NCBI RefSeq assembly: GCF_014174255.1
Contig: NZ_JABEQJ010000001.1
Span: 62,001-126,000, forward strand
Source: Gluconacetobacter sacchari
GTDB taxonomy: Bacteria; Pseudomonadota; Alphaproteobacteria; Acetobacterales; Acetobacteraceae
DNA length: 64,000 bases
Direction of reading: 5' to 3'
The notes beneath the pieces are model-generated. The model saw only the letters and a program-made list of their open reading frames with translations, ran no database searches and was not told the DNA's origin. Positions 2,284 through 19,383 of this stretch are shown piece by piece. Position 1 is the stretch's first letter, and each line of letters begins with the position of its first letter. The translations under genes and the position numbers were made by a program.

Positions 2284-4050
2284 ATGTCAGTTTTCAATGC
2301 CCTTACCACGGCTGTCAGCGGTATCAACGCCCAGTCGACCGCATTTACGAATCTCAGCAACAACATCTCCAACAGCCAGACGGTCGGGTACAAGGCCACC
2401 ACAACGGCGTTCCAGGATTTCGTCGCGAGTTCGCTGGCCAGCACGGCCTCATCCGATATTTCGGATTCCGTCTCCGCCGTCACCGTCCAGCATGTGGACA
2501 ATCAGGGCACGGCGTCGGTCAGCACCGATCAGCTTGCCAGTTCGATTTCCGGCAGCGGCCTCTTCGTCGTTTCCAAGGAAACCGGCGCCACGACCTCAGC
2601 CATTCCGCAGTTTTCGTCTCAGGATTACTACACGCGCAACGGCGAGGTCTACAAGAACAACGAAGGCTACCTGGTCAATACCAGCGGCTACTATCTCGAC
2701 GGCTACATGGCCGATCCCAAGACCGGAACACTCGGCACCGCCCTGACCCAGCTCAATGTCAACAACATCGCCTTCCGGCCGACCCAGACGACGACGCTGA
2801 CGCTGAATGCCACTGTCGGCACGCTTCCGGCCAGCAGCACAAATCCGACGAGCACCAGCCAGACCTATACGACCGCGCCGGTCACGACCTATGATGCGAA
2901 TGGCGAGCCGCATTCGGTGGGCCTGAACTGGACCCAGAACAGCGTCAATCCATATGTGTGGACCGTCAGCGCCTACGACGCCAGCGGCGGCGGCGCGATC
3001 GCAGCCAATACGTCAACCGTCACATTCAATACGAATGGCTCGATACAGTCCGTTACCTCCGGAACCGGCGCTTCCGCCACCACCGTGACGGCAAGCGGCG
3101 CAACCGCTTCCATTCCGATCACCGCGACGTACGGCAGCGCGGTGCAGAACATCACGCTCAATCTCGGCACGATCGGTGGAACCAGCGGCACGACCCTGGC
3201 GGCCGCCACCGGGACCCCGACCGCCAAACAGGTCAATCCCCTGGCCGCCGGAACGACAGCCGGCACACTCACGATGCCGGCCACGATCCTGGGCACCACC
3301 ACTGGAACCGCCCAGACTTATACGACGGTGCCGTTCGACACCTCCGCGACCGACACGACCGGCGCGGACGCAGTGTCCGCCGTCTGGACGCAGGCACCCG
3401 TCACCGGCGCCACGACCAACCCCGTCTGGAACCTGACATTCGTCAATCCATATACCGGCGCCAGCCTTTCGGATTCCTATCAGGTTACCTTCGACCCGGC
3501 CACCGGCGCCGCGGCGTCCGTCTCGGATCTGACGCCAAACCCGAACAGCCCGACGCCGGTGCCAGGCGGCCTCAGCGCTCTGGCGCTCACGGTCGGCGGA
3601 ACGGCTTATACGGCTAATCTCAGCAACGCCTCGCTTTCGACGGCCTCGACGCTGAGCACGGACACCTCGTCCCTCACGTCTGACAGCGTCGCCACCGGCA
3701 CCTATCAGGGGATCCAGATCGAAAGCGACGGCTCGGTCATGGCCCAGTTCGACACCGGCACCCAGTTGGTGGGCAAGATCGCGCTGGCAAACTTCGCCAA
3801 TGTCGACGGGCTGAATGCCGTCGACGGGCAGGCCTATACCGTCACGGCGGCCTCCGGCAACGCCAGGATCGGCACCGTCGGGGCCAACGGCACCGGCACG
3901 CTGGCGGTCGGATATGTGGAATCCTCCACAACCGACCTGACCAGCGACCTGTCCGCCCTGATCGTCGCGCAGGAAGCCTATTCCGCCAATACCAAGGTCG
4001 TCACGACCGCGGACCAGTTGCTGCAAACCACCATCGCCATGAAGCAGTAA
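2284..4050 (+). CDS. flgE: Flagellar hook protein FlgE
   Basis: 588 aa, longer than the enterobacterial hook protein (about 400) but usual for alphaproteobacteria with enlarged surface domains. The N-terminus (FNALTTAVSGINAQSTAFTNLSNNISNSQT) and C-terminus (IVAQEAYSANTKVVTTADQLLQTTIAMKQ) are the conserved D0/D1 rod-type helices. Between them lie Thr/Ala/Gly-rich beta modules. Two of these modules (about residues 193-300 and 342-410, each with a QTYTT-P start and a VTF-x-G end) reappear in the DUF1217 protein at 14754. The gene is monocistronic: a 300-base gap precedes it and a 14-bp stem hairpin follows. Confidence 0.95.
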   Translation: MSVFNALTTAVSGINAQSTAFTNLSNNISNSQTVGYKATTTAFQDFVASSLASTASSDISDSVSAVTVQHVDNQGTASVSTDQLASSISGSGLFVVSKETGATTSAIPQFSSQDYYTRNGEVYKNNEGYLVNTSGYYLDGYMADPKTGTLGTALTQLNVNNIAFRPTQTTTLTLNATVGTLPASSTNPTSTSQTYTTAPVTTYDANGEPHSVGLNWTQNSVNPYVWTVSAYDASGGGAIAANTSTVTFNTNGSIQSVTSGTGASATTVTASGATASIPITATYGSAVQNITLNLGTIGGTSGTTLAAATGTPTAKQVNPLAAGTTAGTLTMPATILGTTTGTAQTYTTVPFDTSATDTTGADAVSAVWTQAPVTGATTNPVWNLTFVNPYTGASLSDSYQVTFDPATGAAASVSDLTPNPNSPTPVPGGLSALALTVGGTAYTANLSNASLSTASTLSTDTSSLTSDSVATGTYQGIQIESDGSVMAQFDTGTQLVGKIALANFANVDGLNAVDGQAYTVTAASGNARIGTVGANGTGTLAVGYVESSTTDLTSDLSALIVAQEAYSANTKVVTTADQLLQTTIAMKQ

Positions 4051-9413: not shown

Positions 9414-9750
9414 CTGCCTGCTCTCCGGGCGGGACCAGGCGGCCCGTATTCCCTCTCCGCTCCCGGAACGGTCGCGATGGAGGCCGGCCGTTCCGGGGCA
9501 AGTCCTCATGGACGCTGGTCACCTTTGCATGTCGGCTCATGGCATTCCGCGAAATGACCATGACGGACCAGAAGGATACGCCGCCGGTCCCCGACATTCA
9601 ATGCCCCTCCGGCGCGAAATGGGCACGACCGCCACCCGGTTGTGAACAGCCCGGGAAATGCGGTAAAGCCGGACGGGTATCATGAAGACGGGGAGAGAGA
9701 GGGCCCGTGAAAGCCCGTTTGGACATACGCGCCGTTGAGCGAGAGCGGCC
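9414..9750. other. Divergent intergenic region between flgI and the transglycosylase gene
   Basis: 337 bases with promoters expected in both directions. Apart from the inverted repeat at 9462-9497 I see no convincing promoter box and no gene. Open frames here are arginine-rich shadows. Confidence 0.5.
9462..9497. promoter_or_regulatory. 10-bp inverted repeat upstream of flgI
   Basis: CCCGGAACGG and its complement, separated by 16 bases, lie about 50-85 bases before the flgI start. It could be an operator or a hairpin in the flgI leader. No function can be assigned from sequence. Confidence 0.35.
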
Positions 9751-10629
9751 TTGAGGGCCACACGCACCGGAACACGGGAAATACCTGCCGGATCGCCGCC
9801 GGCACGCATCTCCAAACGGGTCCTGACCGGCCCTGCCCTGACGGCGATGGCCGCAGCCGCCCTGTTCTGGCCTGCGCGAAGCGCCCTGGCCTATCCGGCC
9901 GAAGCCGCGCGATGCATCGCGGCCACGGCGCAGGCCGAACGGGCGCTGCATGTCCCCGATGGGTTCCTCAATGCCATGAGCCGGGTCGAAAGCGGCAGGC
10001 CGGGCCCCGATGGCACGATTTCGGCGTGGCCATGGACGATCACGGCAGCGGGAATCGGACATTATTACCCGACCCGTGCCGAGGCGACCGCGGCCGTGGA
10101 GATCTTTCGCCAGCAAGGCATCCAGTCGATCGATGTGGGCTGCATGCAGGTCAATCTGCAACAGCACCCGGACGCCTTCGCCTCGCTCGACCAGGCATTC
10201 GACCCGATGGCCAATGCGCTCTATGCCGGCCGGTTCCTGCTCCAGATGTATGACAAGACGGGAAGCTGGCCCCGGGCCGCCGCCGCCTACCATTCCCAGA
10301 CCCCCGGCATCGGCACGCCCTACCAATGGAAGGTGCTGGAGGCCTGGGCGATCCCGCAGGACGGGCGGGACACGCGGCCCGCCCCCGCCCCACCGGCCTT
10401 CCCCCATCCCGCCATGCCCCGGGCGATCCGGCAGCCGACACGCACCGCCGACGCGCAGCCCGAAGCCGACGGCAATCCGCCGCCGCCAGCCAGGACCTTC
10501 CATCCGTTCCAGGGATTTGCCCATTTTTCCCAGCCCACGCTCCACCGGCCGGCGGCGGGCAACATGCGCGGACGCACCCTGGCATCCTACCGCGCCAATC
10601 CCGTCGCACTGGCCGGCCCCACGGGCTGA
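9751..10629 (+). CDS. Lytic transglycosylase (SLT domain), likely flagellum-associated
   Basis: 292 aa. An N-terminal signal (LTGPALTAMAAAALFWPARSALA) is followed by an SLT-type domain. The probable catalytic glutamate is E80 in MSRVESGRPG. Further family landmarks are IGHYYPTRAEA, GIQSIDVGCMQVNLQQHPDAF, FDPMANALYAGRFL and AAAYHSQTPG. The last third is Pro/Ala-rich and probably unstructured. It stands between flgI/flgJ and flhA, so it may open the cell wall for the rod, replacing the missing muramidase half of FlgJ. The start is a TTG with a GAGAG site; the ATG at 9847 would cut the signal short. Confidence 0.85.
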   Translation: MRATRTGTREIPAGSPPARISKRVLTGPALTAMAAAALFWPARSALAYPAEAARCIAATAQAERALHVPDGFLNAMSRVESGRPGPDGTISAWPWTITAAGIGHYYPTRAEATAAVEIFRQQGIQSIDVGCMQVNLQQHPDAFASLDQAFDPMANALYAGRFLLQMYDKTGSWPRAAAAYHSQTPGIGTPYQWKVLEAWAIPQDGRDTRPAPAPPAFPHPAMPRAIRQPTRTADAQPEADGNPPPPARTFHPFQGFAHFSQPTLHRPAAGNMRGRTLASYRANPVALAGPTG

Positions 10630-10646
10630 GCGGCACTCTCCCCCTG

Positions 10647-12215
10647 CTATATCCAGTTGCGCAGGGCGCGCCCGACTTCCTGCAACACCGGCGCGAATGA
10701 CCGCTCCCGCGCCCTGAACACGCGCATGTTCGGATACCAGGGCGAACTGTCTCCCACGTCGCCCCAGCGCCAGCACGCGTCCCAACGGCTGATCAGCCAG
10801 ACCGGGCAGCCGACGGCCCCCGCGAGATGCAGCGGCGCGGTATCGACGGAAATGACCAGATCGAGATTTTTCATGATCGCGGCGGTATCGGCCATGTCCC
10901 GAACCCCGTCCATCGGGTCGAACAGGGCCTGCCCCTCCCACGTCGCGATTTCCGCGCGCGGCCTGCCGAACTGGAGGTTGACCAGCGTCACGTCGGCCGG
11001 CGTCAGGGCCGCTCCCATGTCCGCCAGGGTGGTCGACCGGCGCTTGTCCGCCATCACATGCTCGGACTGCGTCCGCCGGTCGCCCGCCCAGACCAGGCCC
11101 ACACGCGGCCGCGCAACGGGCATGAGCGCCGCCCATCGCGCGACGTCACCGTCATCGGCACGCAGATACGGAACGGTATCCGGAATGTCGCGCACCGACA
11201 TCACGCCGGCGATATACGGCAGGTCCGGGATGGGGGCGGCATAGCTGTACCCCGTTTTCTCGCCGAAGCCCTTCTTGTCGTGAACGGACACGCCCGGGAA
11301 GGACTGGGCCAGGAGTCGAACCAGCGTGCGAGGCACGAGCGCGGTCACCTCCGCTCCCCTTTCCAGCAGGAAAGGAACCAGGCGGATGAACTGGATCGTA
11401 TCGCCCAGCCCCTGCTCCGAGAACAGCAGGACCTTCCGCCCCGCCACGTCGTCGCCATGGCGCAGGCGCGGCAGGGACATGAACCACGCCGTCTCGTCAT
11501 CGACGATCAGCTTCCGCCCGACATAAAGCTCCCACCCCTCACGCAGCCTCCCGGCCTTCAGCAGCGTGCAGGAATAGCCGAAACTGATCTCGGGCTTGGA
11601 CCGGTCGAGCGCCAGTGCCCGCTCGTACCACGGCAGGGCCTCGGCCGAGCGATTGAGACGCTCCAGGGCGCATGCCAGATTGTTCAGAAGCGCGGCGGTC
11701 ACCTCCCCGCCCTGAAGATGGGACCGCAGGATCTTCAGGGCCTCCTCCGGATATCCGACCTCCAGAAGCGACATCGATATGAATTCGCATATATTCGCCC
11801 GCTCGGCCGGATAGCGCTGCGTCATGTCGGCGAACAGGCCGCATCCCCCGGCGATATCGCCGGCGGCCATCCGGATATGCGCCAGGAACGATTGCGCCGG
11901 CACATTGTCCGGGCTGCACCGCAACACGTTGCGCAACAGGGTCTCCACGATGTCATAGCAGGCACTGTACCGCAGGATCACCGTCGCGCCGGCCAGACTG
12001 AGCTTCCAGTCATCGAGACGCAGGGACGTCACTTCCAGGATCAGGCGCAGGGCATCGGCAAATCGTCCGTCGCCCACCAGCCCGTCGCAGATCCGGATCA
12101 GCGTATCGGGCGTCGGCGATCGCAACAGGCTGTCCTTGCAGCACGCCAGGTCCCCGGGCGGCGCTCCCTGCTCCGCCCCGGCCACCATGTCGTCCATCGT
12201 TCCAGTTTCCGTCAT
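10647..12215 (-). CDS. TPR protein with GT9/heptosyltransferase-like C-terminal domain
   Basis: 522 aa. The N-terminal 230 residues are TPR-like helical repeats (ALERLNRSAEALPWYERALALDRSKPEISFGY). The C-terminal 270 residues resemble the heptosyltransferase-like domain of TPR glycosyltransferases: GRKVLLFSEQGLGDTIQFIRLVPFL, then RVGLVWAGDRR, and near the end LDLVISVDTAPLHLAGAVGCPVW. The same architecture is found at 33744-35165. Such proteins often modify flagellins or surface glycans, and its place inside the flagellar cluster supports a flagellar substrate, but donor and acceptor are unknown. It is convergent with the transglycosylase gene. Confidence 0.8.
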   Translation of the reverse strand: MTETGTMDDMVAGAEQGAPPGDLACCKDSLLRSPTPDTLIRICDGLVGDGRFADALRLILEVTSLRLDDWKLSLAGATVILRYSACYDIVETLLRNVLRCSPDNVPAQSFLAHIRMAAGDIAGGCGLFADMTQRYPAERANICEFISMSLLEVGYPEEALKILRSHLQGGEVTAALLNNLACALERLNRSAEALPWYERALALDRSKPEISFGYSCTLLKAGRLREGWELYVGRKLIVDDETAWFMSLPRLRHGDDVAGRKVLLFSEQGLGDTIQFIRLVPFLLERGAEVTALVPRTLVRLLAQSFPGVSVHDKKGFGEKTGYSYAAPIPDLPYIAGVMSVRDIPDTVPYLRADDGDVARWAALMPVARPRVGLVWAGDRRTQSEHVMADKRRSTTLADMGAALTPADVTLVNLQFGRPRAEIATWEGQALFDPMDGVRDMADTAAIMKNLDLVISVDTAPLHLAGAVGCPVWLISRWDACWRWGDVGDSSPWYPNMRVFRARERSFAPVLQEVGRALRNWI

Positions 12216-12379
12216 CTATCCCGCCCCGCCCGGTTCGGATGGGCCGAAAGCCCCCGACCGCGCAAACATCATTTTCGCGCCTTGCTCAACGCGAACTATA
12301 CCGGTACTTATCGGGCTCAGAAACCGGGCTTCGCGGCCATGGCGAATCGTGTCGGTAACGTCATGATTGCGACCGGTAT

Positions 12380-14608
12380 GTGATCCGGCATGTGATAAGG
12401 AAACGCGGCATCTTGGACCCCGCCAATGGCAGCACGATCGCGAGCCCCGGCGAGGGCAGGCTGACGGCCGGGGCCACCGCGCGCGCCGCGCTTCCGTCGC
12501 TTCTGCGCGGCATGGCGTCGTCGACCAGGTTCCTGCGCGGCAGCGGGCCCGGCGGGCTCTCCTGGCGGTCCCTGGTCCCGGGGACGGATATCGGCCTCGC
12601 GCTCGGCGTCCTGCTGCTGCTGTCCATCCTCGTCGTCCCGCTGCCGACCTTCATCCTCGACATGGGGCTGTCGCTGTCGATCACCACCTCGGCGCTGGTG
12701 CTCATGGTTTCGCTTTTCCTTGAAAAGCCGATCGAGTTCACCTCGTTTCCCACCCTTCTGCTGCTGACGACGCTCCTGCGGCTGGCCCTCGAAATCGCGA
12801 CCACACGCCTGATCCTCAGCCACGGCAACGAAGGCACCTATGCCGCCGGCCATGTGGTGGCCGCGTTCGGCGGCTTCCTGATGGGAGGCGACGTCGTGAT
12901 CGGCGGCATCGTGTTCTCCATCCTGCTGGTGGTGAATTTCATGGTCATCACCAAGGGCTCCGGCCGCATCGCGGAAGTCGCGGCCCGCTTCTTCCTCGAC
13001 GCCATGCCCGGCAAGCAGATGGCGATCGACGCCGAACTGTCCTCAGGCGCGATCAACGAACGGACGGCCCGCCGCAAGCGCGGCGAACTGGAAGAGGAAA
13101 GCGCGTTCTACGGCGCCATGGACGGCGCCGCCAAATTCGTGCGCGGCGACGCGATCGCCGCCATCATCATCACGGCCATCAATATCGTCGGCGGCCTGGC
13201 CATCGGCGTGCTGCGCCACGGCATGCCGGTGAACGAGGCCGCCAGCACCTTCACGACCCTGACGGTGGGCGACGGGCTGGTCTCGCAGATTCCAGCGCTC
13301 CTGGTCTCGACCGCCGCCGGCATCGTCGTCACCAAGGGCGGCACGGACGGGTCGGCCGACGTCACGCTGGTCCGCCAACTGGGCGGCAATCCCAAGCCGC
13401 TGGCCATGGCGGCGGTCCTGGCGGCATGCTTCGCGCTGCTGCCCGGCCTGCCGGCCATCCCCTTCCTGGCCATCGCCGCCCTGGCCGGCGCGGGGGCCTG
13501 GTGGCGCCACAGGACGCCCACCACGGACAGCGACGGCGACGTGACCGAGGCCACGCCCGCCGCCCCGGCGACGGCACCGATTTCCGATGTCCTCAAGCTC
13601 GACCTGCTGCGCCTCGAACTCGGCTTCGGCCTGCTGCCGCTGACCAGCGGCGAGAACTCCCAGTTGACCGAACAGATCAAGGCGCTGCGCCGGGCGATCG
13701 CGACCGAGATGGGCTTCGTGACGCCGCCGGTCAGGATCCAGGACAATATCCTGCTGTCGTCGGACAAATATGTCATCAAGCTCAAGGAAATCGAAATCGG
13801 GTCGGGCGAGGCGAAGCCCGGCAAGCTGATGGCCATGAGCCCCTCCGGCGGCGCGCCGCCCCTGGCCGGCGACAAGGCGACCGAGCCCGCCTTCGGGCTG
13901 CCCGCGGTCTGGATCGACCCGTCGCTCAAGACCAAGGCCATCGCGCTGAAATGCACGGTGGTCGACCCCGCGAGCGTCATCGTGACCCATCTCAGCGAAC
14001 TGGTCCGGCAGAACCTGCCCGACCTGCTGACTTACGTCGCCACCCAGTCCCTGCTCGACGATCTGCCGCGCGAGCAGCAGAAGCTCGTCAACGACCTGAT
14101 CCCGTCCCAGGTGACGCTGAGCACCGTGCAGCGCGTCCTGCAATCCCTGCTGGCGGAACGCATTTCGATCCGCGATCTGCCGACGATCCTGGAAAGCATC
14201 CAGGAAGGCAGCGGCCTGGGCCTGCGCGGCATACAGAACCTGACCGGCCATGTGCGCGTCCGCCTCTCCCGGCAGATTTGCAGCACCCTGGAAGGCCCGG
14301 GCGGCTATATCCCCATGATCACGCTGTCCCCGGAATGGGAGGCCGAGTTCCTGAACCACATCACGGGACAGGGCGAGGAACGGCGCCTGGCCATGCCGCC
14401 CTCCCTGCTGAACCGTTTCGTCGCGCGCCTGCGTGAGACTTTCAATACCGTGTCGGCCACCGGCGAGGTGCCGGTCATCGTCGTCTCGACCCCGGTGCGG
14501 GACTCCATGCGCTCGATCGTCGAGCGCGTCCGGCCCAGCGTCTCGGTCCTCTCGCAATCCGAGATCTATCCGCGCGCGCGTATCAAGACGATCGCGACCA
14601 TTACCTGA
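12380..14608 (+). CDS. flhA: Flagellar export apparatus protein FlhA
   Basis: 742 aa at most. FlhA is the ion-conducting, chaperone-docking core of the flagellar export gate. It has eight membrane segments from about residue 70 (DIGLALGVLLLLSILVVPLP), the conserved FHIPEP-type region (SGRIAEVAARFFLDAMPGKQMAIDAEL, RRKRGELEEESAFYGAMDGAAKFVRGDA) and a cytoplasmic domain from about residue 400 to the end (PVIVVSTPVRDSMRSIVERV). Start is uncertain: GTG at 12380 gives an N-tail of about 65 residues; a TTG at 12413 has an AAGGA site and an ATG at 12512 is also in frame. Confidence 0.94.
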   Translation: MIRHVIRKRGILDPANGSTIASPGEGRLTAGATARAALPSLLRGMASSTRFLRGSGPGGLSWRSLVPGTDIGLALGVLLLLSILVVPLPTFILDMGLSLSITTSALVLMVSLFLEKPIEFTSFPTLLLLTTLLRLALEIATTRLILSHGNEGTYAAGHVVAAFGGFLMGGDVVIGGIVFSILLVVNFMVITKGSGRIAEVAARFFLDAMPGKQMAIDAELSSGAINERTARRKRGELEEESAFYGAMDGAAKFVRGDAIAAIIITAINIVGGLAIGVLRHGMPVNEAASTFTTLTVGDGLVSQIPALLVSTAAGIVVTKGGTDGSADVTLVRQLGGNPKPLAMAAVLAACFALLPGLPAIPFLAIAALAGAGAWWRHRTPTTDSDGDVTEATPAAPATAPISDVLKLDLLRLELGFGLLPLTSGENSQLTEQIKALRRAIATEMGFVTPPVRIQDNILLSSDKYVIKLKEIEIGSGEAKPGKLMAMSPSGGAPPLAGDKATEPAFGLPAVWIDPSLKTKAIALKCTVVDPASVIVTHLSELVRQNLPDLLTYVATQSLLDDLPREQQKLVNDLIPSQVTLSTVQRVLQSLLAERISIRDLPTILESIQEGSGLGLRGIQNLTGHVRVRLSRQICSTLEGPGGYIPMITLSPEWEAEFLNHITGQGEERRLAMPPSLLNRFVARLRETFNTVSATGEVPVIVVSTPVRDSMRSIVERVRPSVSVLSQSEIYPRARIKTIATIT

Positions 14609-14753: not shown

Positions 14754-16529
14754 ATGTCCATCTCCGTCGTCTCTCCGGTTACGTCATATCTTTCCGCCAT
14801 CAAGGACGAACCGACGGCCGCGGCGACCTACGCGAAGACCGACAGCGTCACCCGGCAGCAGGTCGCGACATTCGAAAAGGATGCCACGTCGATCACCTCG
14901 GTCGACGGGCTCCTCAAGAATTACTCGGTCCTGCAAGTGGTACTGGGCGCCTACGGGCTCAGTTCGATCGCCAACGAGACCGCGCTGATCAAGGACCTGC
15001 TGACGCAGGACCCGACCTCGTCCAAGTCCCTTGCCAGATCGTCGGGCAACGCGGCCTGGCTCGCCTTCGCCGACGCCTTCAAGATCTGGGGCCAGAACAA
15101 GGGGTCGACCTCGGTGTCGCCCTTCCTTGCCGACGGGGTCTCCGACGTGCTCGCCCAAACCTTCACGGCGACGACGTCCATTTCCGCCAGCATCACCCTG
15201 CCGTCAGCCGCAAAGACGGGCCAGAGCTATACGACGGCCCCCGTCACCGCCTACGATTCGAGTTCGACCGCCCATCAGGTCGCCCTGAAATGGGCGCAGA
15301 GCACCACCAACCCCCTGGCCTGGACCGTCAGCGCCTATGACGCCGACGGCAACGCGGCGGTCCAGGCGAACGCCTATCAGGTCACGTTCAATCCCGACGG
15401 CACCATGGCATCCGTCACCGACGCGTCGACCGGCGACGCCGTGCCTCCGGCGACGGACGGCACCATCTCGCTCCCCCTCACCCTGAACATCGCGCAGCCG
15501 GACGGCACCTACGCGTCCCAGGCCCTCGGCCTCGATCTCGGCACGCCGGGCGGAACAGGCGGCGTCACGATGGCCACCGGCAACACGCCCTCCACCAGCA
15601 TCAACGCGAGCCAGGTCGCCAGCCTGACGTCGTCGTCGGGTTCCAGCACCACCCTCACCCTTCCCTCGATCACCCTGGGCAGCCTGTCGGGGACAGGCCA
15701 GACCTACGTCACGGCACCGTTCGACCCGAACCAGGCCTCGGACACCGCGAATGGTGTCTCCCCCGACAATCAGACGACTCTTTCGGTCAAATGGGTCCAG
15801 AGCACCACCGCGCCATCGACCTGGCAGGCCTATATCATCGATCCCTACGGCTCGACGGTGACCAGCACGGCCCTGACCACCAGCTTCGACAGCACCGGAA
15901 ACCTGCTCCAGGTCAACGGCCAGTACACCCACACCATTCCGCCCCTGCAAGCGCAGGTGAACGGCGTTGCCTACACGGTCAATATCCAGCCTCCCAACGT
16001 TTCGACATCGGCATTGACGCCGGACACGACGCTGACGAACAACAGCACGGTCGTCGACACCGCGAGCGGGGTCAATATCGGCACGGTCGTGTCGCAGTTC
16101 GAACAGGAGCAGTACGAAAACAGCCCCGACATGCAGGATGACGGGGTCGGCAACGCGCTCTATTTCACACGCAAGATGAGCGGCATCACATCCCTGTCGC
16201 AATTGATGTCCGACACCACCCTGCTGACCGTCGCGGAAACGGTTTCGGGCTACGATCCTTCGACGTTCGGAACCCTGGATTATGACGAGCAGGTCCGCCT
16301 GCTCAAGAACAAGGTCGATCTCACCAAGCTCTCGACCCCCAAGGAAATCCAGCAATATGCAGAACAATATCTGGCCCTGCTGCAAATCACGCCGCAGAAG
16401 CCGGACAAGCCGGCATCCCTGATGGATCTGTACGGCGGCGATACAAGCGACGAAGGCATCGCGGCGCTGTTCGGCGCCAGCGACTCGTCCTCGTCGTCGA
16501 GCAGCGGCCTTTATTCCAGCATGTTCTGA
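14754..16529 (+). CDS. DUF1217 flagellar protein with inserted hook-like (FlgE) modules
   Basis: 591 aa. Residues about 20-110 and 440-545 look like the two ends of a DUF1217 protein (helical; TYAKTDSVTRQQVATFEKDA and NALYFTRKMSGITSLSQLMSD), a family found in alphaproteobacterial flagellar clusters. Between them, about residues 150-430, lie Thr/Ser-rich beta modules close to those of FlgE in this window. In both proteins a segment of the form QxYTTAPVTxYD is followed by NP-x-x-WTVSAYDA, and a second starts GxxQTYxTxPFD. The tail is Ser-rich (residues 575-588). It sits between flhA and fliI. It is probably an exported axial or hook-associated protein, but the role is unknown. Confidence 0.8.
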   Translation: MSISVVSPVTSYLSAIKDEPTAAATYAKTDSVTRQQVATFEKDATSITSVDGLLKNYSVLQVVLGAYGLSSIANETALIKDLLTQDPTSSKSLARSSGNAAWLAFADAFKIWGQNKGSTSVSPFLADGVSDVLAQTFTATTSISASITLPSAAKTGQSYTTAPVTAYDSSSTAHQVALKWAQSTTNPLAWTVSAYDADGNAAVQANAYQVTFNPDGTMASVTDASTGDAVPPATDGTISLPLTLNIAQPDGTYASQALGLDLGTPGGTGGVTMATGNTPSTSINASQVASLTSSSGSSTTLTLPSITLGSLSGTGQTYVTAPFDPNQASDTANGVSPDNQTTLSVKWVQSTTAPSTWQAYIIDPYGSTVTSTALTTSFDSTGNLLQVNGQYTHTIPPLQAQVNGVAYTVNIQPPNVSTSALTPDTTLTNNSTVVDTASGVNIGTVVSQFEQEQYENSPDMQDDGVGNALYFTRKMSGITSLSQLMSDTTLLTVAETVSGYDPSTFGTLDYDEQVRLLKNKVDLTKLSTPKEIQQYAEQYLALLQITPQKPDKPASLMDLYGGDTSDEGIAALFGASDSSSSSSSGLYSSMF

Positions 16530-16573: not shown

Positions 16574-18031
16574 GTGCTTCCTGACGAAACGAATGCCGGA
16601 ACCGAAAGAACGTCGCGAGACGCAGCACTGGGTGCCGGGATGTCCCGCACGCTGGATGCCATTCGCAACGCCGTGGCCGGCCCGTTTCATGATATCCCCG
16701 TCGGCATTCTGGAGGGGCGCGTCACCGGCCTGACGGGGCTTTCCGTCTCCCTCAGCGGCATGCGCGACTTTACCGGCGTGGGCGACCGCGTCAGCATCGT
16801 CGGACTGGACGGGCGCGAGACGGATGCCGAAATCGTCGCGTTTCGCGGCGACACGGCGATCGCCATGCCGTTCGGGTCGCTGGCGGGCATCGGATCGGGC
16901 TGCCGCGCGACCTTCCGCCTGTTCGACCAGGACCAGCGCCGCCGCAGGGCGGGCGGCACGCTGGCCGTCAATCCCCTGTGGCAGGGGCGCGTCATCGACC
17001 CGATGGGCCGCCCCGTCGACGGCAAGGGCCCGCTGCCCCCGGGCGGCGAGCCCTGCCGGCTGCACGCCCCTCCCCCCGAGGCGGCGCTGCGGGCCCGCCT
17101 CGGGCCGCGTATCGATCTGGGCGTGCGGGTGCTCAACCTGTTCACGACCTGCCGCCAGGGCCAGAGGCTGGGCCTGTTCGCCGGCTCCGGCGTCGGGAAA
17201 TCCACGCTGATGGGTATGCTGGCACGCAACACCGATTGCGACGTCGCGGTGATCGCGCTGGTCGGCGAACGCGGCCGGGAGGTCCGGGAATTCGTGGAAG
17301 ACGATCTGGGCCCCGATGGACTGGCGAAATCGGTGGTCGTGGTCGCCACTTCCGACACCTCTCCCCTGATGCGCCGCGAAGCCGCCTATGCGGCGATGAC
17401 GGTGGCGGAATATTTCCGCGACCAGGGTCGATCGGTGCTGCTGCTCATGGACAGCGTCACGCGTTTTTGCCAGGCGCTGCGGGAAATCGGCCTGTCTTCG
17501 GGGGAGCCGCCGGCGACGCGGGGCTATCCCCCCAGCGTCTTCGCCGAACTGCCGCGCCTGCTAGAACGCGCGGGCCCGGGCCTGGCCGGCCCGGACGGCG
17601 CGGCCGGCCAGATCACGGCCATGTTCTCGGTCCTCGTCGAAGGCGACGATCACAACGAGCCCGTCGCCGACGCGGTGCGCGGCATCCTCGACGGGCACGT
17701 GGTGCTGGAACGGCGGATCGCCGAATCCGGGCGCTATCCCGCCGTCAACGTCCTGCGCTCCCTCTCGCGCACCGTTCCCGGCTGCAACAGCGTGGAAGAA
17801 AATGCCCTGACGCAGGAAGCGCGCACCGATCTCGCGACCTGGGACGATATCCAGGACATGGTTCGCCTGGGCGCCTATCGGGCCGGAAACGATCCCGTCA
17901 CCGACAAGGCCATTCGAGTCGCCCCCGCGATCGAACAGGTCCTGAAACAGGCGCGCCACGACAGCGCCACGATCGCCCAGAGCTTCGACGCCCTGCGCGG
18001 CGCCCTCTCGGCCGCCACGGCCGCGCAATGA
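16574..18031 (+). CDS. fliI: Flagellum-specific ATPase FliI
   Basis: 485 aa from a GTG; an ATG at 16640 gives 463 aa and a start closer to the family norm. FliI is the F1-beta-like ATPase that helps load export substrates. The Walker A motif GSGVGKST is at residues 204-211 and the Walker B strand is SVLLLMDSVTRF at about 285-296. DTSPLMRREAAYAAMTVAEYFRDQG and the C-terminal NDPVTDKAI are also typical. Its stop overlaps the fliJ start (ATGA), so the two are translationally coupled. Confidence 0.95.
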   Translation: MLPDETNAGTERTSRDAALGAGMSRTLDAIRNAVAGPFHDIPVGILEGRVTGLTGLSVSLSGMRDFTGVGDRVSIVGLDGRETDAEIVAFRGDTAIAMPFGSLAGIGSGCRATFRLFDQDQRRRRAGGTLAVNPLWQGRVIDPMGRPVDGKGPLPPGGEPCRLHAPPPEAALRARLGPRIDLGVRVLNLFTTCRQGQRLGLFAGSGVGKSTLMGMLARNTDCDVAVIALVGERGREVREFVEDDLGPDGLAKSVVVVATSDTSPLMRREAAYAAMTVAEYFRDQGRSVLLLMDSVTRFCQALREIGLSSGEPPATRGYPPSVFAELPRLLERAGPGLAGPDGAAGQITAMFSVLVEGDDHNEPVADAVRGILDGHVVLERRIAESGRYPAVNVLRSLSRTVPGCNSVEENALTQEARTDLATWDDIQDMVRLGAYRAGNDPVTDKAIRVAPAIEQVLKQARHDSATIAQSFDALRGALSAATAAQ

Positions 18032-18618: not shown

Positions 18619-19383
18619 ATGGAACAGACAGAACAACAGACCGCGAAGATCTTCATCGCCACGCCCTGTTTCGGCGGCCTGGTAACGCAGGAATACATGG
18701 AATCCGTCATTGCCTGCACCGGCATCATGCGAACTCCGATGACGCTCTCCCTGCTCGGCGACGATGCGATGATCAGCCGGGCGCGCAATACCCTGGTCCA
18801 TCAGTTCTTCACGCGCTCCGATGCCTCGCACATCCTGTTCATCGACGCCGATATCGGCTTCGCCGGCGAAGCGCCGGCCCGCCTTCTCGCGGCCGGCAAG
18901 GACGTGATCGCGGGCATGTATCCGATCAAGGACCGGTTCTGGGACCAGGCGACCCAGGAGAACATCCTGCGCGGCGAAGCGCAGGAAACCTCCTCGCTCC
19001 GCTATGTCGGCGAGACGGACGCCATGCACCAGACCTGGGAAAAAGGGCCGCTGCTGCGCACGCATTACGCGGGCACCGGCTTCATGATGATCAGCCGCAA
19101 GGCGATCGCCAGCATGATCAGGCATTACCCCGAAACCGCCTATCGCCGGATCGACGCCGCCGGCAGCGGTGACGAAGGCATGTGCCACGCCCTGTTCGAC
19201 GCCAGCATCGATCCGGAAACCGGCACCTATCTGAGCGAGGATTTCACCTTCTGCCGGCGCTGGCGCGAAATCGGCGGCGAAGTCTGGCTCGATACGTCTC
19301 TGTCCCTGACGCATGCCGGGCGCGCGGCCTATCGCGGCAATCCGTCCTGCCGCGTCGGCCAGGTCCACCTCAAGAGCATGTAA
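18619..19383 (+). CDS. GT-A-fold glycosyltransferase-like protein
   Basis: 254 aa. The N-terminus IFIATPCFGG is a beta strand typical of GT-A enzymes. It is followed by LLGDDAMISRARN and a DxD-type motif IDADIGF (D76, D78), the metal/nucleotide-sugar site. A later part, AGTGFMMISRKA, then YLSEDFTFCRRWREIGGEVWLD, matches the acceptor-side layout of this fold. It lies between fliJ and motB with an AGGA ribosome site, inside the flagellar cluster. It is a candidate for flagellar protein or surface glycan modification; the sugar is unknown. Confidence 0.8.
   Translation: MEQTEQQTAKIFIATPCFGGLVTQEYMESVIACTGIMRTPMTLSLLGDDAMISRARNTLVHQFFTRSDASHILFIDADIGFAGEAPARLLAAGKDVIAGMYPIKDRFWDQATQENILRGEAQETSSLRYVGETDAMHQTWEKGPLLRTHYAGTGFMMISRKAIASMIRHYPETAYRRIDAAGSGDEGMCHALFDASIDPETGTYLSEDFTFCRRWREIGGEVWLDTSLSLTHAGRAAYRGNPSCRVGQVHLKSM

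Follow-up and report, generated by a model that had tools for sequence, protein, structure and literature searches.

The DNA analysed here, a stretch of 64,000 nucleotides that we call the window, carries a flagellar gene, duf1217, which lies between flhA and fliI and encodes a protein (P0001) whose DUF1217 domain is interrupted by a large insert resembling the outer part of the hook protein FlgE; flgE itself is also found in the window (Table 1). The first-pass annotation of this DNA had placed both reading frames, and given the duf1217 product its length, as we find them. It had also read the ends of the product as DUF1217, which is borne out by Pfam: PF06748 is matched in two stretches that follow each other in order, at 127.9 bits compared to a gathering score of 22.9 (E 4.5e-37), the first covering profile positions 1-65 (window 14949-15146, residues ~66-131 of P0001).

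Table 1. Features of the duf1217 and flgE genes in the window and the neighbours of duf1217.
Feature	Coordinates	Strand	Details
duf1217 gene with hook-domain insert	14754..16529	+	591 aa (P0001); no internal stops
DUF1217 N-terminal part	14754..15125	+	residues 1-124, boundary approximate; Pfam, and tblastn of residues 1-124 against relatives
Insert	15126..16073	+	residues ~125-440, ~316 aa, ends approximate; not present in Nguyenibacter or in 6 genomes of Gluconacetobacter
Insert module 1, FlgE D2 domain	15159..15629	+	PF07559 at residues 153-280; VIA-align Z 15.9
Insert module 2, probable equivalent of the second, D2-like outer module of two-module FlgE	15639..16028	+	BLASTP, hhalign
DUF1217 C-terminal part	16074..16526	+	residues ~441-591; PF06748 at 432-531 (profile 58-148)
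flgE, two-module hook protein	2284..4050	+	588 aa (P0002); Pfam Flg_bbr_C, LlgE_F_G_D1, FlgE_D2
FlgE module 1 (D2)	2776..3219	+	residues 165-312; homologue of insert module 1
FlgE module 2	3220..3678	+	residues 313-465; homologue of insert module 2
flhA, upstream neighbour of duf1217	12380..14608	+	PF00771
fliI, downstream neighbour of duf1217	16574..18031	+	PF00006 and T3SS_ATPase_C; source of the in-locus tree

P0001 shares with DUF1217 proteins (PF06748) both halves of the domain, their order and the location in a flagellar cluster. The solved member 2O8S (Agrobacterium AGR_C_984p) is matched by sequence at E 1.2e-9 and 2.6e-12, and the fold comparison with it, on a poorly folded model of the core, gives a Z of only 3.2. 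Usual DUF1217 members differ from P0001 in being ~260-300 residues long and uninterrupted. A DUF1217 gene of Brucella is listed between motA and flgF-fliI, with its function given as unknown (PMC7410920), and DUF1217 is called unknown by one paper and similar to FlgF by another; PMC10269862 makes no mention of it. A combination of DUF1217 with FlgE_D2 was not found in the open-licence papers searched, nor was PF06748, AGR_C_984, or FlgE together with domain shuffling.

P0001 is not itself a FlgE, since the rod and hook ends are missing: a Pfam search at E up to 1 finds no Flg_bb_rod, LlgE_F_G_D1 or Flg_bbr_C in it. The window FlgE passes the cut-offs for Flg_bbr_C and LlgE_F_G_D1, stays slightly under that for Flg_bb_rod (19.5 of 20.7 bits), and exceeds that of NCBIfam FlgEFG_subfam. 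The NCBIfam FlgE equivalog discriminates poorly, because the window FlgE (348 bits) falls under its cut-off of 365 just as P0001 does (38.1 bits).

Three further reading frames were noted around these genes. Between fliI and motB, a protein of 254 residues (18619-19383, + strand) has no Pfam match at E 0.001 and is 79-90% identical across the Gluconacetobacter, Nguyenibacter and g85 loci compared (g85 being a related genus). Upstream of flhA, two long frames (9598-11136 on the - strand and 10827-12383 on the + strand) overlap at 10827-11136, and neither has a Pfam match at E 0.001.

Homology of the insert with the outer part of FlgE

The insert (residues ~125-440) is collinear with residues ~167-470 of the window FlgE. 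In BLASTP, residues 136-450 of P0001 align with FlgE 167-490 with 129 of 344 positions identical (38%, E 2e-27), and the alignment score of the insert, 448, lies 27 SD above that of shuffled sequences (300 shuffles: mean 113, SD 12, maximum 159); the DUF1217 core scores 54 against FlgE, which is the level of its shuffles (mean 51, maximum 84). The middle of the protein had earlier been described as a FlgE-like third; it is foreign to DUF1217 as proposed, but amounts to about half of the length. The two modules described there, in FlgE order and with motifs in common, are recovered: P0001 carries GQSYTTAPVTAYD, WTVSAYDA and GTGQTYVTAPFD, the window FlgE carries the counterparts SQTYTTAPVTTYD, WTVSAYDA and GTAQTYTTVPFD, and the modules match like with like (scores 290 and 150) rather than crosswise (122 and 90).

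Module 1 is recognised by the Pfam profile FlgE_D2 (PF07559; 32.5 bits, cut-off 22.7, E 1.4e-7). Module 2 of the insert pairs with module 2 of FlgE at an hhalign probability of 99.3%, and together with the BLASTP alignment this indicates that the two are homologous. The profiles of modules 1 and 2 also resemble each other (hhalign 93.6-98.5% over 68-93 columns), and it may be that D2 was duplicated in tandem inside FlgE long ago. In the alignment, the copied block runs from just past FlgE D1 up to the LTSDS motif ahead of the point where D1 resumes, and so takes in nearly all of the hook subunit's outer part. At the junctions, compared by eye, FlgE reads SVMAQFD and DUF1217 reads IVSQFE, a microhomology too short for judgement.

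The AlphaFold2 model of P0001, built from 8 alignment rows, is poor overall (mean pLDDT 52) and fair in module 1, where blocks of ten residues reach pLDDT 60-87 between residues 141 and 280. With VIA-align, model residues 137-297 superimpose on FlgE D2 of 6ndt at Z 15.9 (rmsd 2.7, 148 residues aligned), and the first 17 rows (Z 15.9 to 9.0, residues ~135-297) are all FlgE entries or flagellar complexes containing the hook; in a Foldseek search of the PDB, eight structures reach E 0.001 or better, and all of them are of the hook (FlgE). The model thus identifies module 1 as a hook D2 domain, and for this module the comparison of predicted structures suggested in the first-pass annotation points to a common fold. 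Module 2 is modelled at low pLDDT, and its best fold match is a phage baseplate chain at Z 5.0. The model of the window FlgE is fair in the modules only; six structures match its fold at E 0.001 or better, each of them a FlgE D2. While Ser and Thr make up 31% of the insert, the idea that the likeness reflects nothing but a low-complexity, Ser/Thr-rich composition has practically no probability left, being refuted by the shuffles, none of which came near the observed score, and by the fold match of module 1, and being at odds with the Pfam match over cut-off.

Module 1 thus has the profile and the fold of the D2 domain of known hook proteins (PF07559; Treponema denticola 6NDT/6NDW, Salmonella 1WLG, Campylobacter 5AZ4), but it is placed in a DUF1217 protein instead of between the two halves of a hook D1 domain, and it lacks the flanking Flg_bb_rod and Flg_bbr_C ends.

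Distribution and origin of the hook insert

Of 299 genomes of the family, 228 have a PF06748 match, and most among the matches listed are contiguous; in the class, 27 of 240 genomes have one, the window genome included. The class survey listed some matches that begin late in the profile, namely those of G353 (a 666-aa frame), G352 (a 300-aa frame) and, slightly, G517. Seven of 14 Gluconacetobacter genomes carry the hook insert, six have DUF1217 without it and one has no DUF1217 match; in g85, six of nine genomes carry the insert and three have no match. Gluconacetobacter dulcium, asukensis, tumulicola, aggeris, liquefaciens and takamatsuzukensis make up six of the seven insert-bearers, and in Nguyenibacter vanlangensis the DUF1217 that occupies this position between flhA and fliI is uninterrupted. 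Matches span both modules in all 13 insert-bearing genomes. Among 35 aligned DUF1217 proteins, FlgE_D2 is found at E 0.1 or better in ten, and 25 have no FlgE match at E 0.01. Among the matches listed, the hook-type insert was seen in Gluconacetobacter and g85, and DUF1217 homologues, which the first-pass annotation had proposed to inspect for it, are generally without a hook domain.

The history of the insert was followed on trees of FliI and of the DUF1217 core for 13 insert-bearing and 8 insert-free genomes. One change of state is enough on each of them, although the branch joining the insert-bearers is weak (76/87 on FliI, 72/66 on the core). The core tree gave two changes when the row for G042 was cut, and one with the full G042 core. 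In a tree of the two-module block, nine inserts form a single clade (100/100) on a long branch (0.85) that falls within an unresolved group of the long FlgE from this clade. In a tree of 62 single modules, the 13 type-1 insert modules form one group (100/100) among the FlgE modules 1, and ten insert modules 2 form one group (100/99) among the FlgE modules 2 (25 rows, 100/100).

The block tree contains 9 of the 13 inserts (without G042 and three g85 genomes) and 15 long FlgE (without G247, G304, G305 and Nguyenibacter). It was rooted on two g61 FlgE by our choice; a 100/100 branch separates g61 from the rest, while in the single-module tree, which is midpoint-rooted for drawing, g61 FlgE module 1 joins g85 FlgE (83/54) and does not fall outside, so that the outgroup role of g61 is a choice and not a finding. 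For INS_G192 and INS_G286 the module cut was shifted by ~40 residues; both were kept in the single-module tree and left out of the hhalign profiles.

Long FlgE also occurs in the insert-free genomes G060, G123, G215, G247 and G299, and, judged by matches and frame length, in G304 and G305, which makes long FlgE older than the capture. As D2 is widespread in FlgE, and DUF1217 is widespread without the insert, the direction of transfer would be from FlgE to DUF1217. Based on these trees, we suggest that the block was probably captured once, from a two-module FlgE, in an ancestor shared by g85 and the insert-bearing Gluconacetobacter. The original proposal of a domain transfer from flgE into the flagellar gene between flhA and fliI is therefore well supported, by homology as well as by the trees.

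Recent copying from the genome's own flgE was rejected: among 37 FlgE the insert is matched best by those of G060 and G215, while the one in the window is outside the top five, and all inserts fall into a single clade. Separate gains in each of the two genera are superfluous, one change being sufficient on both trees; a FliI tree constrained to group the seven insert-bearing Gluconacetobacter to the exclusion of g85 is mildly disfavoured (p-AU 0.033). A further alternative is that DUF1217 had a hook-type domain from early on and lost it in most lineages. The occurrence of the domain in two different genera would agree with this, but we regard it as very improbable given the contiguous DUF1217 in most of the matches listed for family and class, the closest likeness of the insert to two-module FlgE of the same clade, and the single gain that suffices on the trees.

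In G. takamatsuzukensis (L068:2723-5764), the DUF1217 protein has 1014 residues with four copies of module 1 and one module 2, and as the four copies cluster within the insert modules 1 (92/92), the expansion is local. The FlgE proteins of G277, G174, G042 and G302 (L114, L115, L116, L178) are shorter, lack module 2 and have a diverged module 1; compared to the two-module FlgE of relatives, these Gluconacetobacter proteins show a loss or a replacement of an outer domain of the hook. In four of the seven insert-bearing Gluconacetobacter the genome's own FlgE is without module 2 while the insert keeps it, which suggests that the insert evolves independently of the hook of its own cell.

A shared insertion site in DUF1217

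Stretches from 34 selected places were used to cluster the inserts of 32 DUF1217 proteins, which resulted in five families and one singleton. The hook modules (Gluconacetobacter and g85) form one family and are the only one of the five to match FlgE. The other four are mutually unrelated and occur in at least ten other genera (L073-L100): inserts of ~340-360 residues (g56, g71, g49, g86), of ~500 residues (g102), of ~120 to ~315 residues, apparently a repeat present one to three times (g17, g25, g37, g76), and of ~180 residues (g95). Three of the aligned DUF1217 proteins match the Pfam ALTTAQ repeat, and we take these to be the ones from g95. The singleton, from G061 (L078:3542-5203), looks like two tandem DUF1217 domains and not like an insert, and G267 (L087:4213-8956) has two tandem duf1217 genes with the same type of ~500-residue insert in each.

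In the insert-bearing proteins the PF06748 match breaks at profile position ~47-65, so that all inserts share, within the accuracy of the alignment, one site. An HMM of our own, seeded partly with antisense ORFs, gives breaks that agree with those from Pfam. Five unrelated families at one site mean that the site tolerates insertion, and it is thus probably exposed and free to vary. We also considered that the inserts always derive from other flagellar genes. This is not supported. For one type-2 and one type-4 insert, searches of five genomes each gave matches in 4 of 5 (none in G000) and 5 of 5, respectively, and as every match lay inside a DUF1217 frame, neither insert has a second copy there; in addition, 25 of the 35 DUF1217 proteins have no FlgE match at E 0.01.

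Putative export and possible role

Axial flagellar proteins generally avoid cysteine. P0001 has no Cys, 27% Ser+Thr and 3.7% Lys+Arg, the window FlgE no Cys, 30% and 1.9%; P0001 is thus Ser/Thr-rich and Lys/Arg-poor like FlgE, and unlike FliI, FlhA and FliM. Elsewhere in the window, FliI has six Cys, FlhA three, FlhB one and FliL none. Trimmed to the domain, 81 of 89 DUF1217 ORFs are free of Cys, compared to 43 of 44 FlgE (last 420 residues) and 0 of 22 FliI. With FliL also free of Cys and FlhB having only one, the lack of Cys alone proves nothing. No hydrophobic or Sec-type signal peptide was seen by eye at the N-terminus of P0001, and this, along with the near absence of Cys, makes DUF1217 most likely a putative substrate of flagellar type III export; the flagellar system would offer it the simplest path to the outside. 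Taken with the hook-type insert, these features point to an exported, exposed protein.

In hook structures, the outer block of FlgE joins D1 by two ends that are next to each other, and the block may thus be portable, in that a loop of another protein could accommodate it and leave the host intact. The outer domains D3/D4 of Campylobacter and Caulobacter FlgE are likewise portable and inserted in a flagellar subunit, but they remain within FlgE and interrupt D2 (PMC5069557); the outer block described here belongs to a protein of another gene family. A Salmonella FlgE chimera with Campylobacter D3-D4 still builds a hook, and one with D3 alone gives no flagella, so portability has its limits; along the 6-start direction, the Caulobacter hook is held mainly by D2-D2 contacts, and the same is true of Salmonella (PMC5069557).

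The explanation that we favour, and hold to be probable, is that a DUF1217 protein, itself a putative exported structural protein, captured the FlgE block and presents it as an exposed lobe. DUF1217 would be an exported structural component of the flagellum with its insertion site projecting outward, and the insert would be an exposed variable lobe, built in this case of hook domains. Such a lobe would most likely touch the surface of the hook or rod region through D2-type contacts, or simply decorate the surface; packing against the hook is possible. Matching the cell's own hook is not the general role of the site, given the four of seven genomes whose FlgE is without module 2 and the unrelated inserts found at the same place. 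A bolder version, which we put forward tentatively and consider rather doubtful, is that DUF1217 is an unrecognised exported structural part of the alphaproteobacterial flagellum with a hypervariable exposed site, much like the outer domains of flagellin and FlgE, that the hook-type lobe would be seated in or on the hook or rod lattice by D2-D2 contacts, and that the five modules of G. takamatsuzukensis would form a longer arm.

The insert might instead be a near-neutral passenger at a site that tolerates anything, the hook block having no specific role. The five unrelated families at one site are what this would predict, and the amino acids of the insert do change faster than those of the core (67-69% vs 78-80% identity between G000 and two relatives). 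Against this, dN/dS of the insert is 0.15-0.35 in six Gluconacetobacter pairs (module 1 0.17-0.48, module 2 0.10-0.22, core parts 0-0.29; pairs with g85 rows were set aside, dS being above 1 or undefined), which indicates that the insert has been under purifying selection since its capture, and both modules are matched in every insert-bearer, including species whose FlgE lacks module 2. We thus think this unlikely. Less probable again, and in our view quite improbable, is a cytoplasmic mimic of the hook that binds a factor for hook export or assembly (hook cap, length control or export gate) and so regulates hook assembly. It would suit such a role that the gene's neighbours, flhA and fliI, both belong to the export apparatus, and that only the outer FlgE block was copied; however, the FlgE ends (D0/D1) are missing from the insert, no export factor is known to read the D2 block, and the near absence of Cys, which is shared with FlgE and not with FliI, points outside the cytoplasm.

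Capture of the FlgE block by DUF1217 is a clear example of structural domains passing as a block from one family of flagellar genes to another, unrelated family; it comes with a likely clade of donors, close relatives in which the site is empty, and a later tandem expansion. It also offers a handle on DUF1217 itself, whose site accepts five unrelated domain families and is thus probably exposed, and it makes a location of DUF1217 in the hook-basal body directly testable.
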